The notes beneath the pieces are model-generated. The model saw only the letters and a list, made by a program, of their open reading frames with translations, did not search any database and was not told the origin of the DNA. Both the position numbers and the translations under genes were made by a program. A stretch of 64,000 bases of DNA, taken from NCBI RefSeq assembly GCF_003610535.1, contig NZ_RAPN01000001.1, forward strand, positions 3,149,320-3,213,319. The letters are read 5' to 3'. Below, piece by piece: positions 3,388 through 29,201 of this stretch (within the stretch, counting starts at the first letter, position 1; every line of letters begins with the position of its first letter). Origin of the DNA: Mangrovibacterium diazotrophicum (lineage in GTDB: Bacteria > Bacteroidota > Bacteroidia > Bacteroidales > Prolixibacteraceae).

Positions 3388-3420
3388 TCGAGTTTGATAA
3401 ACGAAAAATCAGAAATAGAA

Positions 3421-5475
3421 ATGGACACCAATACAGCAATCGGGTTAAACCCGCTACTGGAGCATTTTAACACCCTGCACGATTCTGCTCCGTTCACAAA
3501 AATTAAAAACGAACATTATTTGCCTGCTTTTCAAAAAGCGATGGAACTGGCAAAAGCCGAGATACAAGCAGTCATCGACAATCCGGCAGAGCCGACTTTT
3601 GAGAATACCGTTGAAGCGATGGAACGCACCGGCGAGCGCCTGAGCATCATCCGTGGTATTTTCTTCAACCTGAACTCGGCCGAAACCAACGACGAGATGC
3701 AGAAAATTGCGCAGGACGTAGCACCGATGCTTTCGGAATTTGGCAACGACATCAGCTTAAATGAAGACTTGTTTGCCCGGGTAAAATCAGTATACACGAA
3801 AAAAGACGAGCTAAACCTGAACATCGAACAGCAAACCTTGCTTGATAACAGCTACCTGAGTTTTGTGCGCAACGGGGCCAACCTCAGCGCCGAAGATAAG
3901 GACACCTACCGTAAAATAACAGGAGAGCTCAGTAAGCTGGGATTGCAGTTTCAGCAGAATGTATTGGCTGAAACCAATGCGTACGAGATGCATTTAACCG
4001 ACGAAGCCGACTTGGCAGGTTTACCCGAGTTTGTTCGCGAAGCCGCTGCTCTAACAGCAAAGCAAAAAGAAAAAGAAGGCTGGGTTTTCACCTTGCAACA
4101 TCCGAGCTTCATCCCGTTCATGAAATATTCTGATCGCCGGGATTTGCGCGAAAAGCTATTCCGGGCATCTTCCTGCAAAGGAAACCAGGACAACGAGTTC
4201 GACAACAAAGAAATCATCAAAAAAATACTGGATCTGAAGCTTGAAAAAGCCCGGCTTTTAGGATTTGAAAGTCATGCTCAGTTCAAACTGGAACGCCGCA
4301 TGGCCGAAACTCCGGAACGAGTAGCAACATTCCTGGATGAGTTGCACCAGGCATCGAAATCATTTGCCGACGAAGATTTGGCAGAAGTGCAAAAATTTGC
4401 CAACGAAAACGGTTTTGAAGGTACCATCCAACGTTGGGACTGGACCTACTATTCCGAAAAACTAAAGAATGCGCGCTACGGTTTCAACGAAGAAGAAGTG
4501 AAGCCGTTCCTGAAACTGGAAAACGTTTCCCAAGGCATTTTCGGACTCGCCAAACAGCTTTACAACCTCGAGTTCAAACAGAATACCCAAATTGAAGTTT
4601 ATCATCCCGATGTGCAGCCTTACGAGGTTTATAATGACAAGGGTGAGTTCATCGCGGTGTTCTATATGGACTTCTTCCCGCGCGACGGAAAGCGTTCGGG
4701 AGCATGGATGACCGACTACCGTTCACAATATGTAGAAGACGGTGTGAATAAACGTCCACACATTAGCATTGTGTGTAACTTCACCAAGCCCACCGAAACC
4801 AAGCCTTCGTTGCTGACTTTCGACGAACTGACAACCTTCCTGCACGAGTTCGGACACGCGCTGCACGGCATGCTCAGCCAATGCCAATATGCCAGTACAT
4901 CAGGCACTAACGTATTCTGGGACTTTGTGGAACTACCCTCGCAAATGCACGAAAACTGGGCCTACGAAAAAGAATGGCTCGACCAGTTTGCCGTTCATTA
5001 CGAAACCGGGGAAAAATTGCCCGAGGAATTAATCCACAAAATTATTGAGGCTAAAAACTTCCAATCCGGCTACTTCCAGGAACGCCAACTGAGCTTTGGC
5101 ATGCTCGATATGGCTTATTACACGCTGACAGAACCATTAAAAGAGAGTGTTCCAGAGTTTGAGGCAAAAGCAATGAAACCAACACAATTACTGGAACCGG
5201 TTGAAGGATCGCTGATGAGCACCGCCTTTAGCCACATCTTTGCCGGCGGCTACGATGCTGGTTACTACAGCTATAAATGGGCCGAGGTACTGGATGCCGA
5301 TGCTTATTCGGTCTTCCAGAAGAATGGCATTTTCGACAAAGCAACAGCAGACTCTTTCCGCGAAAATATCCTGGAAAGAGGCGGAAGCGAGCATCCGATG
5401 ATCCTCTACAAACGCTTTAGAGGACAGGAACCAACAGTTGACGCACTGCTGGAACGCAGCGGATTAACGAAATAA
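3421..5475 (+). CDS. dcp: M3 family metallopeptidase, peptidyl-dipeptidase Dcp type
   Basis: An M3 zinc peptidase of 684 residues, the usual size for Dcp/oligopeptidase A. The zinc motif HEFGHALHG is at residues 475-483, and the downstream M3 signature with SHIFAGGYDAGYYSYKWAE near the C terminus is intact. There is no signal peptide, so the enzyme is cytoplasmic and clips dipeptides or degrades short peptides. I start at ATG 3421; a TTG at 3394 would add nine residues, but TTG starts are rare here and the ATG gives a normal N terminus. It ends in front of a strong inverted repeat. Confidence 0.9.
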   Translation: MDTNTAIGLNPLLEHFNTLHDSAPFTKIKNEHYLPAFQKAMELAKAEIQAVIDNPAEPTFENTVEAMERTGERLSIIRGIFFNLNSAETNDEMQKIAQDVAPMLSEFGNDISLNEDLFARVKSVYTKKDELNLNIEQQTLLDNSYLSFVRNGANLSAEDKDTYRKITGELSKLGLQFQQNVLAETNAYEMHLTDEADLAGLPEFVREAAALTAKQKEKEGWVFTLQHPSFIPFMKYSDRRDLREKLFRASSCKGNQDNEFDNKEIIKKILDLKLEKARLLGFESHAQFKLERRMAETPERVATFLDELHQASKSFADEDLAEVQKFANENGFEGTIQRWDWTYYSEKLKNARYGFNEEEVKPFLKLENVSQGIFGLAKQLYNLEFKQNTQIEVYHPDVQPYEVYNDKGEFIAVFYMDFFPRDGKRSGAWMTDYRSQYVEDGVNKRPHISIVCNFTKPTETKPSLLTFDELTTFLHEFGHALHGMLSQCQYASTSGTNVFWDFVELPSQMHENWAYEKEWLDQFAVHYETGEKLPEELIHKIIEAKNFQSGYFQERQLSFGMLDMAYYTLTEPLKESVPEFEAKAMKPTQLLEPVEGSLMSTAFSHIFAGGYDAGYYSYKWAEVLDADAYSVFQKNGIFDKATADSFRENILERGGSEHPMILYKRFRGQEPTVDALLERSGLTK

Positions 5476-5493
5476 TCGACATATCGATCTGTT

Positions 5494-5526
5494 AGTGAGG
5501 GCTTCACTTGAAGTGAAACCCTCACT
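5494..5526 (+). terminator. Strong inverted repeat after dcp, probable terminator
   Basis: AGTGAGGGCTTCACTT and AAGTGAAACCCTCACT form a 16-bp stem with one mismatch and almost no loop, 19 bases past the dcp stop. The T-tract behind it is weak (TCGTTTT), so this may be a terminator or an mRNA-stabilising hairpin. Confidence 0.6.
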
Positions 5527-5544
5527 TCGTTTTAGCAATAGGCA

Positions 5545-5651
5545 TAAAAAAAGACAAGCGCCCCTGCGCTTGCCTTCTAACCTTTTCTCTCTGTGTATGT
5601 ATGAAAAAACTCTGTTTCTGTTTCCGTTTACGGCTTTGAGGTAAACTTCTG
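5545..5651 (-). ncRNA. Putative sigma54-dependent small RNA, copy 1
   Basis: Read on the minus strand, a predicted start near 5651 (12 bases after the -12 box) gives an RNA of about 107 nt. It opens with a hairpin GTTTAC...GTAAAC (5627-5646), continues with a purine-rich, probably unstructured stretch and ends in the stem CAAGCGC/GCGCTTG (5555-5572) followed by seven U. No ORF of note lies in it. Its duplicate at 5855-5959 keeps the same parts. I know no named RNA family that fits; expression is inferred. Confidence 0.6.
5546..5572 (-). terminator. Intrinsic terminator of small RNA copy 1
   Basis: On the minus strand CAAGCGC-AGGG-GCGCTTG is followed by TCTTTTTTT. The matching stem in copy 2 carries T-A where this has C-G, a compensatory change. 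Confidence 0.8.
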
Positions 5652-5661
5652 CTTTTTATAA

Positions 5662-5677
5662 AACAACATGCGTGCCA
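5662..5677 (-). promoter_or_regulatory. Sigma54-like -24/-12 promoter of small RNA copy 1
   Basis: Minus strand TGGCACG-CATG-TTGTT. This fits the RpoN consensus TGGCACG-N4-TTGC at every position except the last C of the -12 GC (T here); the GG-N10-G spacing is exact. The same match, including the deviation, occurs in copy 2. Confidence 0.6.
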
Positions 5678-5709
5678 TAAACTGAAATCAACATAGCCAT
5701 TAGCACCTT

Positions 5710-5725
5710 GTTAAGACTTATTAAG
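5710..5725 (-). promoter_or_regulatory. Conserved upstream element of small RNA copy 1
   Basis: CTTAATAAGTCTTAAC (minus strand) lies 32 bases upstream of the -24 box. Copy 2 has CTTAATAAATCTTAAC 31 bases upstream of its -24 box, although the sequence in between is not conserved. It contains TTAA repeats in dyad arrangement and could bind an activator. Confidence 0.45.
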
Positions 5726-5854
5726 AATTCCTCCCCTACTTTCACTCAAAATCCAACTCAAGCACCATTCTTTTGTCTAGTCCCCTTCGACTTCGAAAAC
5801 ATCAAAAATCTTCTCTACTATCAAAAAAGAAGTTGTCCCCTCAAAATCGGAACA

Positions 5855-5959
5855 TAAAAAAAGCAAGTGCCTCTGCACTTGCCTTCTCACCTTTTCTCTC
5901 TGTGTATGTATGAAAAAACTCTGTTTCTGTTTCCGTTTACGGCTTTGAGTAAACTTCTG
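5855..5959 (-). ncRNA. Putative sigma54-dependent small RNA, copy 2
   Basis: Minus-strand RNA of about 105 nt predicted from the -24/-12 box at 5970-5985 to the terminator at 5856-5882. It has the same 5' hairpin GTTTAC/GTAAAC, purine-rich linker and terminal hairpin as copy 1. Its terminator stem is GCAAGTGC/GCACTTGC. Expression and function are inferred only from the conserved layout. Confidence 0.6.
5856..5882 (-). terminator. Intrinsic terminator of small RNA copy 2
   Basis: Minus strand GCAAGTGC-AGAG-GCACTTGC followed by TTTTTTT; an 8-bp perfect stem. Confidence 0.8.
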
Positions 5960-5969
5960 CTATTCATAA

Positions 5970-5985
5970 AACAAGATGCGTGCCA
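5970..5985 (-). promoter_or_regulatory. Sigma54-like -24/-12 promoter of small RNA copy 2
   Basis: Minus strand TGGCACG-CATC-TTGTT, the same match to the RpoN consensus as in copy 1. An upstream TTAATAA/TCTTAA element is at 6017-6032. Confidence 0.6.
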
Positions 5986-6100
5986 AAAACCAAAATCCGT
6001 CTTCAAATTACCCCGCGTTAAGATTTATTAAGAAGAATGTCCCAAAATCGAGCCGGTAAATACTTCAAATTCATTTTGTGCGTTTTCAATACACGGTTGA

Positions 6101-8758
6101 ATGAATGAAGACATGAAACAAAAAGAGAACATGAAAACGCCAAACAACGGCTTTGCTTGCCGGCTAAAAGCATTAGTCAAACTATCACTACTATTGGTAA
6201 TCTTAAGCATCCAATTGAAAGTTTATGCCCAGGAGGATGTGGAACCAGCCATTGTTGACGGCCGGGTAACAGAGGAAGAGTTTGGCGAGCCGTTGGAGAA
6301 AGCCATCGTACAAATCCGCGGATCGGGTGTCTATACCATAACCAACCGCTTTGGCTACTTCCGTATGAAACTGCCACCGGCTTTTTTTGAGCTTGAGGCC
6401 ATCCACCCGGGAATCTTCAGTGAGTTCTACAATGTTTCGACTTACGAAGGTATTTTAACGCCTATGGGCGCGGTTCGACTGGAACCGGTAGCAGTTGGTC
6501 GGCTTCAGCAACGCGACATCGCTTCCCGGATTGATATCACGAAAACCCCGTCGGCAACCCGGAATACACCTGTCATAAACATGATGGCGCAACAAGGCGG
6601 AACTGATTTTAACGAGCTCTTCACAGGGGAGCCGTCGGTTTACCTGCTTGAAAACGGAGGCGGATACGGAAGCTCGGAAATTAGCGTACGAGGTTTCGCC
6701 GCCAATCAAAACCAGGTTGTTTTTAACGGAATTAGCCTGAATAACCCGGAAACAGGACGAATGAATACCGCACTTTATCCGGGCCTGAGTGACTGGGGAC
6801 ATCAGGCCCAGTTTACAAGCGGTGTTGCATCGGGCAAACAAAGCGAATTGGGACAAACCAGCTTGATCAATGTTTTGCCCTTCATGCCTCACAAAAAATT
6901 TGGTGTTAACGTGCTCGCTTCAGCTGGAATGAACGGCTACCTGAAAACAGCAGCCACGGTGCATTCCGGGCTCAGCGACCGCAAAATAGCTTTCACTTTG
7001 AAACTGGACCGAACTGCAGGCGATGGCATTCCCGATTTCACCGGGTTTGAAAGCTACGGCATGTACCTCAACCTTTTCAAAGAATACAGCCACATGCACA
7101 GTTTTCTGCTCACCTCGGTCATGAAAACGTGGAAAGCAGACCTGCGCAACCGCCCCGATTCTATCTCCCGAATCAGCAGCTACGGTATCGACCACAACAG
7201 TGGCTGGGGTTTTCTGGACAATTCGGAATTGGGATGGAACGGAAGTTTCGGCATCGCCAACCTGTCGGTACTAACCCACAACTGGCACATGCGCGTTCAC
7301 ACCCGACTGGTGAGCCAGCTTTACCTGGAATTGGAGAACAGCGCCCAAACCTATCCGCAGGGGATGATGAATGGGATGACCCCCTACGAAATACCAGCGA
7401 CCGACCGTGGGCTGGTTGATTTCGATGCTATCTCAGCGGCCAATTCGGAACAGACAATTTCCGAAACCGATGGCATTTCAACTCTGGCCGGCGTAAGTCG
7501 GACAACAAGATATGGTTTGCAAACACAACTGATTCATGAGATTGACGACGACAACAAAGTCTTCCTGTCTGCCGACCTCGAACAATACACGTCTGACCAC
7601 TTCGCAGGCGCAACCGATTTATTGGGCGCTTCCGGATTTATGAGCAACGCCGATATAAACGGCAACGATCAGGCGGCAACAAACTTCGTGGAGGCAAACT
7701 TTTTACCCAAAACCGGTAAAGCAGATAAGGTCGACTACGATTATCGCTCTTTCATTCGAAAAGGAGGCTTGGCAGCGAAATTGGAGAGAAGCGGAAACCG
7801 GGCATTTGGCTACGCTGAAACCGGGATCTATGTGAAAAGCCTGAAGCGCGAAGACTATTTTTCGTACGAAACAAACGACTCGCATGGAACGACGGACTGG
7901 ATTACACAATTCGGTTGGCGCCTGAGCACAGGCCTCACCTACCGCCTGAACGAATTTCATTCGATCCGCTTTAATTCAGGAGCATCCGGAAGTCCGACAC
8001 GTTTCGACGTACTTTTCCCTGCTGGCAACAACTGGGAAAACACATCGGCTAAAAACCAGAATCTCTATACCGGTGAACTTGCCTATGTGTTGAACAGTGC
8101 GCGGTTTTTTGTTTCGCTGCGTGGCTACGCCATGTACCAGCAAAACCGCACCGATATTCAACGCTACGGGCTGAATGCAGATGAAGAATACGCCGTTCTT
8201 TCAGGATTGAACCAGTTTCACCGCGGTGTTGAGCTGAGCGGTCAAATAACTTACTTCAAGCGGTACAACCTGCATGTATCAGCGTCGTACGGAAAATGGA
8301 CATTTAAGAATTCGGCCAATGCGAAAATATATGACGAAAGCAACCAACTGCTCTCAGAATCGGATCTTCCGTTTGATGGCTACAAAACAGACAACTGTCC
8401 GCCAATCAGCCTGTACGCGCGAAATGAGTTTAACCTGTTGAAAGGATTGGAAATCAACGTCAACTATTATCGCTCTTTTGCGAGCTATGCCCCGCTGCTG
8501 GTTCACGATTTTGATAACGACGCAGTTCCAGAGCAGCTTAAACTCCCTGCATTCGATAAGCTGGGAGCCGGAGTGAGCTACTACCATGAATTCCGCAAGA
8601 AGCAAAACATCCACGTGTTCGCGGATGTGCAAAATATACTGGGAAGTGAATACATCAACCAGATTTATTCGAATAAAAGCGGAGATGCTTTCGGCTCAAA
8701 CCTGGCACTGTATGGCAAAGGCATGAGCTGGAGAGCCGGACTGAGCATTACTTTCTAA
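6101..8758 (+). CDS. TonB-dependent receptor with CarboxypepD_reg-like N-terminus
   Basis: An 885-residue outer-membrane receptor. After a signal peptide (ending near VYAQ at about residue 44) comes a CarboxypepD_reg-like domain (about 50-130: VDGRVTEEEFGEPLEKA, then the ITNRFGYFRMKLP turn), a plug domain (motif SSEISVRGFAANQNQVVFNGISLNNP) and a 22-strand-type barrel ending in aromatic SITF. It imports an unknown ligand with TonB energy. No SusD partner is next to it, so it is not a SusC of a pair. ATGs at 6113 and 6131 are possible starts and give a more normal signal peptide. Its stop overlaps the stop of the convergent nucleosidase gene by 4 bases. Confidence 0.85.
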   Translation: MNEDMKQKENMKTPNNGFACRLKALVKLSLLLVILSIQLKVYAQEDVEPAIVDGRVTEEEFGEPLEKAIVQIRGSGVYTITNRFGYFRMKLPPAFFELEAIHPGIFSEFYNVSTYEGILTPMGAVRLEPVAVGRLQQRDIASRIDITKTPSATRNTPVINMMAQQGGTDFNELFTGEPSVYLLENGGGYGSSEISVRGFAANQNQVVFNGISLNNPETGRMNTALYPGLSDWGHQAQFTSGVASGKQSELGQTSLINVLPFMPHKKFGVNVLASAGMNGYLKTAATVHSGLSDRKIAFTLKLDRTAGDGIPDFTGFESYGMYLNLFKEYSHMHSFLLTSVMKTWKADLRNRPDSISRISSYGIDHNSGWGFLDNSELGWNGSFGIANLSVLTHNWHMRVHTRLVSQLYLELENSAQTYPQGMMNGMTPYEIPATDRGLVDFDAISAANSEQTISETDGISTLAGVSRTTRYGLQTQLIHEIDDDNKVFLSADLEQYTSDHFAGATDLLGASGFMSNADINGNDQAATNFVEANFLPKTGKADKVDYDYRSFIRKGGLAAKLERSGNRAFGYAETGIYVKSLKREDYFSYETNDSHGTTDWITQFGWRLSTGLTYRLNEFHSIRFNSGASGSPTRFDVLFPAGNNWENTSAKNQNLYTGELAYVLNSARFFVSLRGYAMYQQNRTDIQRYGLNADEEYAVLSGLNQFHRGVELSGQITYFKRYNLHVSASYGKWTFKNSANAKIYDESNQLLSESDLPFDGYKTDNCPPISLYARNEFNLLKGLEINVNYYRSFASYAPLLVHDFDNDAVPEQLKLPAFDKLGAGVSYYHEFRKKQNIHVFADVQNILGSEYINQIYSNKSGDAFGSNLALYGKGMSWRAGLSITF

Positions 8759-29118: not shown

Positions 29119-29166
29119 CCGCCGTATTTGTGGACAAATTTGAGATTGATTGCAACCACATAAAAA

Positions 29167-29201
29167 AATGCTAAAGCAGTCGCTTTACCTTTTGAGGCAT
29201 T
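29167..29201 (+). other. Nested hairpin in the metK leader
   Basis: AATGC (29167-29171) pairs with GCATT (29197-29201) around TAAAGC-AGTC-GCTTTA (29172-29187). It lies in the predicted 5' leader of metK, about 95 bases before the start codon. Role unknown. Confidence 0.4.

Follow-up and report, generated by a model that had tools for sequence, protein, structure and literature searches.

Sigma54-driven sRNAs and sponge RNAs are both known kinds of bacterial regulators. SroC is an sRNA sponge that titrates another sRNA by base pairing, while GlmY is not known to titrate its sibling in this way. As far as the available text of its sources goes, the decoy sRNA GlmY of E. coli has a sigma54-dependent promoter and works with the protein RapZ (PMC7073468, PMC6075780). 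For Bacteroidota, the accessible part of a study of Flavobacterium psychrophilum lists in its Table 2 a putative regulatory RNA, Rfp36, whose promoter is of the sigma54 type (SM4), and reports that in this species genes for chaperones, proteases, gliding and envelope proteins have promoters of this type (PMC9723704). Finally, according to the excerpts at hand, FopS of Bacteroides is multicopy and short, with a U-rich seed that includes UUUUUCA and precedes a terminator, and start codons are the site of action of both GibS and FopS (PMC11697453, PMC7366714).

The two units described here, in Mangrovibacterium diazotrophicum, resemble Rfp36 in that each is an sRNA candidate behind a sigma54-type promoter in a member of the Bacteroidota, a likeness of description; the accessible part of the source describes neither a tandem pair nor a sponge role for Rfp36. 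With GlmY they would share a sigma54-dependent promoter on a decoy-type sRNA, but they belong to another lineage and GlmY, in what its sources describe, works with RapZ. Their titration of another sRNA through base pairing would be like that of SroC, but in a different phylum. In Bacteroidota, an sRNA promoter of the sigma54 type has a precedent, and the claim of an earlier note on this DNA that the pair would be new for Bacteroidota was too wide, because Rfp36 is already listed behind such a promoter in the part of PMC9723704 that we could access. Our literature search found no sigma54-switched sponge against an RNA derived from frr, the gene for the ribosome recycling factor (RRF), nor did it find this RNA family, its loop or its frr partner.

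The window (i.e., the whole stretch of 64,000 nucleotides that was analysed) contains a gene-free stretch of 625 bases (5476–6100), as the earlier note had it, between a dcp-like M3 peptidase gene (3394–5475, plus strand; PF01432) and the gene of a TonB-dependent receptor with a plug domain (6101–8758, plus strand; PF07715), and the list of open reading frames holds none of at least 60 amino acids within 5476–6027. Directly after dcp, a long inverted repeat, GTGAGGG...CCCTCAC (5497–5533), is probably the dcp terminator. The two units read on the minus strand, to which all their coordinates below refer, and form a repeat (5547–5640 and 5856–5949) with 94% identity over 94 nt, beyond which a 49-nt block is 88% identical and, upstream, an 18-nt block is 94% identical. 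The spacing between the copies is 307–309 bases, in line with the roughly 308 given before. In both units, a short spacer separates TGGCACG-N4-TTG from the 5' hairpin, which a purine-rich linker joins to the terminator. If the base after TTG is taken as −12, the expected starts fall at 5651 and 5959, the very positions proposed earlier, and the predicted small RNAs span 5546–5651 (unit A, with its terminator ending near 5546) and 5855–5959 (unit B), both starts being deduced from the boxes. Folding (z = −3.07 for unit A and −3.53 for unit B) predicts in each the 5' hairpin and the terminator that the earlier note had described: in unit A, a GUUUAC/GUAAAC stem with the loop CUCAAAGCC (5626–5646), a hairpin that is found family-wide, and in unit B, a hairpin with the loop UCAAAGCC (5935–5954); the intrinsic terminators, delimited by folding and alignment, lie at 5546–5578 and 5855–5888. 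The terminator stems, CAAGCGC/GCGCTTG versus CAAGTGC/GCACTTG, differ by a paired change that was already noticed at first reading; the alignment of the two units confirms it as compensatory, and, when nine units are aligned (the window's two included), a pair-keeping double change is seen in 6 of 20 predicted pairs. No Rfam family reaches its gathering score over the units in a covariance search, which agrees with the previous statement that no named RNA family has this build, and the matches in their region are all weak (9.1 to 27.5 bits). The sole match of the window at the gathering score is elsewhere, a SAM-II riboswitch at 29124–29184 (plus strand, 62 bits).

The −24/−12 boxes were located by pattern scan at 5677–5664 for unit A (TGGCACGCATGTTG, conserved in homologues) and at 5985–5972 for unit B (TGGCACGCATCTTG). 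The pattern TGGCAY-N5-TTG occurs five times in the window, against 1.38 expected from shuffles, and 0 of 100 shuffles reached five. In the consensus of the sigma54 −12 element, TTG is followed by C, but this base is T in 64 of the 69 family units that we aligned (see below); TGGCA[CT]-N5-TTG is present in all 69, though both the model and the pattern selected for the promoter. A model of the RNA without its promoter (R1) matched 16 of 140 family genomes (E ≤ 0.01) and gave 15 loci in addition to the genus's eight tandem units. A −24/−12 match lies within 8 nt of the equivalent upstream place in five of these 15 loci, the same five that have the 5' CAAAGC motif; one of them (G025) belonged to R1's own alignment, and leaving it out gives 4 of 14. 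Four other R1 matches (L016, L018, L021 and L032) were set aside as FopS-like 3'UTR elements by their look and not relatives of the units; among them, L032 1501–1609 (G000:C5; R1: 41.7 bits) resembles a 3'UTR and has GAGAGAAAAGG and a terminator, but is devoid of a sigma54 box.

The genome encodes one copy of rpoN (one Sigma54_DBD match) and has 13 matches to Sigma54_activat, seven of them strong. Upstream of the boxes, the repeat and the alignment of homologues delimit a candidate activator site, TTCTTAATAAGTCTTAAC, in unit A (5710–5727) and its counterpart in unit B (6017–6034); this TTCTTAATAAnTCTTAA element recurs with at most two mismatches in six of nine genus-level units (G025 being counted among the nine). 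No single family-wide activator site was found in the upstream sequences of the family units, and the top shared upstream 8-mers in other genera derive, by reading, from adjacent coding sequence. The comparative evidence supports two sibling small RNA genes that would be driven by RpoN, as the earlier note had suggested, and the sequence-based case for the promoters and the genes is strong.

The tandem pair lies between the same two genes in all four genomes of the genus (g1, G000 to G003), in which the flanking genes were recognised by reading. In these genomes, the surrounding DNA has changed and the boxes and the RNA remain, which bears out the contrast between kept boxes and terminators and drifted flanks drawn from the window alone. 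A 201-nt query recovers two copies in each of the four and a single one in G025, from another genus (5 of 61 genomes). Using a model of the promoter and the 5' motif (R2, sequence only), we obtained matches in 78 of 140 Prolixibacteraceae genomes (E ≤ 0.001), of which 68 were accepted after removal of ten: six as antisense matches to the frr 3'UTR (G089, G093, G012, G103, G153 and G157) and four as protein-coding (G024, along with G154, G155 and G023 of g21). In G012, no sigma54 RNA was found, and L281 (G012:C46) carries a CAAAGCC-like motif once, devoid of a sigma54 box. At the level of units, the motif and the boxes were inspected in all 79, and the full downstream sequence in part of them; 69 were retained after discarding G089, G012, G093 and G141c (frr 3'UTR antisense), G097b (doubtful), G024, G155, G023 and G154 (protein-coding) and G016, whose motif is one base short but which stays among the 68 genomes. 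The second tandem copies of G000, G001, G002 and G003 stand outside the 69.

By our terminator criterion, a terminator-like fold follows soon after in 66 of the 69 aligned units, against a mean of 1.9 and a maximum of 6 out of 69 in 20 rounds of shuffling of the downstream sequences. The sequence downstream of the 5' part varies among family units, while the CAAAGCC hairpin is kept. In ten genomes inspected, the units adjoin dcp, lepA or a TonB-receptor gene, or follow an MTA-phosphorylase-like gene (neighbours being named by reading, except where Pfam-assigned), and, because neighbourhoods differ between genera, the units are genes of their own and not a fixed UTR. The earlier note had named a coding remnant or a transposon end as what would speak against small RNAs. 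At face value, a tandem duplication might indeed be a chance repeat or such a remnant, but the conservation pattern refutes this explanation, which we regard as barely credible: the pair is present in 4 of 4 genus genomes, relatives occur in 68 of 140 family genomes, and no frame is conserved, since only some relatives have an AUG in their units and out-of-frame indels and stops occur.

In the 5' hairpin, the CAAAGCC loop is nearly invariant, and the flanking arms vary yet remain complementary. At least four pairs enclose the loop in 59 of 61 distinct sequences, and the mean hairpin energy is −5.31 kcal/mol, versus −2.62 when the flanks are shuffled and −3.47 when each right arm is taken from another genome; in neither control did any of 200 randomisations give so low a mean. 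The hairpin arms covary across the family.

When the complement of the motif was searched in nine genomes, a perfect 16-nt match was recovered in eight (not in G065), each time in the same setting, directly after frr (RRF by Pfam). In the window, CUCAAAGCC of unit A (5632–5640) is complementary to GGCUUUGAG of the frr 3'UTR by sequence comparison, and the complement search places CUCAAAGCC of unit B at 5941–5949. In eight genomes, which belong to five genera, the frr 3'UTR is the same from just past the stop codon to the end of the seed, but the coding sequence of frr differs; in much of the family, about 78 nt of this 3'UTR are nearly invariant, with a terminator at their end (L096 1440–1560 and orthologues). 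Matches are found in 88 of 140 family genomes (E ≤ 1e-6), or 86 without G065 and G109, whose hits were discounted as short and located elsewhere. The exact seed is present in 37 of 38 loci inspected (six of the 38 being repeats of the same place), and an RRF motif lies within 400 nt upstream in 33 of these 37 according to a simple pattern. No Rfam family reaches its gathering score at the frr 3'UTR. From its near-invariance and its terminator, we infer that the frr 3'UTR probably gives rise to a 3'UTR-derived sRNA.

Of the 68 genomes with the sigma54 RNA, 64 have a detected frr element; the other four, G063, G078, G065 and G109, are devoid of a convincing match. The genomes with both, the RNA only, the frr element only and neither number 64, 4, 22 and 50, respectively (Fisher p = 8e-16, a value uncorrected for descent; the distribution follows phylogeny). 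By genus, 8 of the 12 that have the frr element also have the RNA, which occurs in 0 of the 11 others (the coding case of g22 excluded). Across 395 genomes of the class, R2 yielded 69 matches (E ≤ 0.01; best besides the window genome, 21.6 bits), judged as noise collectively and not one by one, and the frr 3'UTR yielded 41 (best non-own, 42.8 bits), likewise treated as noise. With these matches so taken, neither RNA appears to extend beyond the family, in a sampling where their own order is thinly represented. A scan of genome contigs for the exact pattern returned 49 stretches, including some from Bacillus, Sulfurovum and other unrelated groups, which were taken as chance.

The most conserved part of the unit is complementary to the frr 3'UTR, and the complementarity takes in the loop and its A-rich flanks, in the correct order. 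In each of 12 chosen genomes, the RNAduplex energy lies between −35 and −54 kcal/mol, with 0–2 of 200 shuffles as low, keeping in mind that A-rich/U-rich pairing inflates duplex scores; when internal folding is counted, 0–5 of 100 shuffles are as low in 12 of 12 chosen relatives. All pairing tests used the frr 3'UTR of the window genome, also for G065, where none was found. The window's own copies, both of which carry CCGU instead of CCAU, are only modestly better than shuffles after correction for accessibility (4 and 9 of 100 as low). Moreover, the motif shows 55 tolerated (G-U-keeping) transitions, 12 non-tolerated ones and 29 transversions across 44 distinct sequences, counted over 12 tolerant sites versus 5 others; this pattern supports the pairing weakly, because the hairpin also constrains the sites and the site numbers are unequal. 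Extensive complementarity to another predicted sRNA is conserved, and it is weaker for the window's copies. A loop so compact and so nearly invariant, on a stem that varies, might also be a protein-binding site, the complementarity to frr then stemming from another constraint, but the frr 3'UTR has the complementary strand and not the same strand, and the complementarity reaches into the flanks in the correct order, so that we hold a protein-binding site to be highly improbable.

Since the most conserved part of the units is complementary to an almost invariant RNA, the units are probably sponges. The reading that we consider, on balance, somewhat probable is a target mimic, i.e., a sponge under sigma54 control that acts on the frr-derived RNA and that, in the copies of the genus, has a FopS-like second seed. 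Among the points against it, the motif is lost in one tandem copy of G002, and a sponge and a mere target look alike at the sequence level.

The phylum Bacteroidota makes little use of Shine-Dalgarno pairing. In the window genome, the motif with up to three mismatches has 143 matches, versus 75 for the reversed pattern, and start codons were inspected for 30 of the 143. At most two mismatches leave 20 matches, one of which is the frr 3'UTR; seven fall on the ATG start of a plausible gene, and five of the seven encode proteins that look by eye like signal-peptide proteins or lipoproteins, while 12 of the 19 best sites besides frr are not plausible gene starts, which also speaks against a sponge. 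These CUCAAAGCCAUGAAAAC-like sites at the start codons of exported-protein genes, with the motif over the start codon and N-termini that read as signal-peptide-like, occur both in relatives (L092, L101, L103, L110 and L119) and in the window genome (L201, L209, L210, L212 and L213). The leaders of L092, L103 and L110 contain AACAGAAAACAG-like repeats matching the second complementary block; in L092, there are many such repeats, complementary to the frr 3'UTR, upstream of the start of a small exported protein. In L248, L256 and L275 (g21), as well as in L274, a sigma54-type promoter and a CAAAGCC-like motif lead into signal-peptide genes.

It may be asked whether the sigma54 RNA is itself a regulated target or a decayed mRNA leader, silenced by the frr-derived RNA as mRNAs would be. 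The same promoter and motif do precede a signal-peptide gene in three g21 genomes, and many units retain an AUG after AAAGCC; nevertheless, frames are not conserved, the AUG is absent from several units (e.g., those of G000, G002, G005, G025 and G075), the terminator-like fold mentioned above soon follows in nearly all of them and the hairpin arms covary, which makes a target or leader rather unlikely in our view.

The copies of the genus carry a second stretch, GUUUUUUCAUACA, which the alignment to the FopS model places at 5598–5610 in unit A, as a possible anti-start-codon seed, and the alignment of the units at 5907–5919 in unit B. It is complementary to AUGAAAAAAC-type starts. UUUUUUCAUACA is found in 9 of 9 aligned units, G025 included, and in the units UUUUUUCAU is followed by AAGGUUA and the terminator, the seed being predicted as weakly paired. 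Like FopS and GibS as described in the available excerpts, the units have a putative U-rich seed with UUUUUCA, which could cover AUGAAAAA starts, and then a terminator. Unlike them, they have sigma54-type boxes at the expected distance, where those excerpts give a sigma-ABfr promoter for FopS and PM2 for GibS, and they add a 5' hairpin with CAAAGCC and the complementarity to the frr 3'UTR. The alignment to FopS (RF04319) is full-length and in register, but its 17.6 bits (E = 4.3 and 0.88) are far below the gathering score of 56 bits; membership was rejected and the likeness kept as a resemblance. Outside the window, L054 (G000:C1:2453500-2459500) holds six FopS-like repeats scoring 37.2 to 32.3 bits against RF04319, below the cut-off.

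These features raise the alternative that the units are FopS-type trans-acting sRNAs, in which the GUUUUUUCAUACA seed would repress exported-protein mRNAs and the complementarity to frr would be secondary in the genus. The invariance of UUUUUUCAUACA, the weak in-register alignment and the presence of a FopS-like array in the same genome are in its favour. Yet the units inspected in other genera often have no such seed and keep the loop, and the 24-nt complement of the seed, allowing up to three mismatches, finds only the two units themselves in their own genome, so that any seed targets would need shorter pairing. The six-copy array follows a mutS-like gene and has TAnnTTTG promoters (gene and promoters by reading), and, as it is separate, the sigma54 units would form a separate arm. 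Altogether, we deem this alternative unlikely.

Under the sponge reading, an enhancer-binding activator would fire and sigma54-RNA polymerase would transcribe the paralogous stand-alone units. An sRNA derived from the frr 3'UTR would block start codons of the CUCAAAGCCAUGAAAAC type, and the CAAAGCC loop would imitate this 5'UTR/start-codon site of exported-protein mRNAs, the loop and its A-rich flanks pairing with the frr 3'UTR RNA. Once the frr-derived RNA was sequestered by the unit, exported-protein mRNAs would be relieved whenever sigma54 is active, while the second stretch, GUUUUUUCAUACA, in the copies of the genus could repress a set with AUGAAAAAAC starts, as FopS does. By analogy with the accessible part of the promoter set of F. 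psychrophilum, an envelope-stress input to the units would fit.

Little is established on sRNA action in Bacteroidota, and here sequence alone predicts a circuit made of a sigma54-controlled RNA, a near-invariant frr 3'UTR as its partner and start-codon sites in exported-protein genes. More tentatively, and as a possibility that we would not yet call probable, Prolixibacteraceae may use a growth-linked sRNA cut from frr to silence exported-protein starts, a sigma54 sponge to titrate it and the sponge's own seed to silence a second set, so that the start-codon sequence would sort envelope genes into opposing sRNA regulons.
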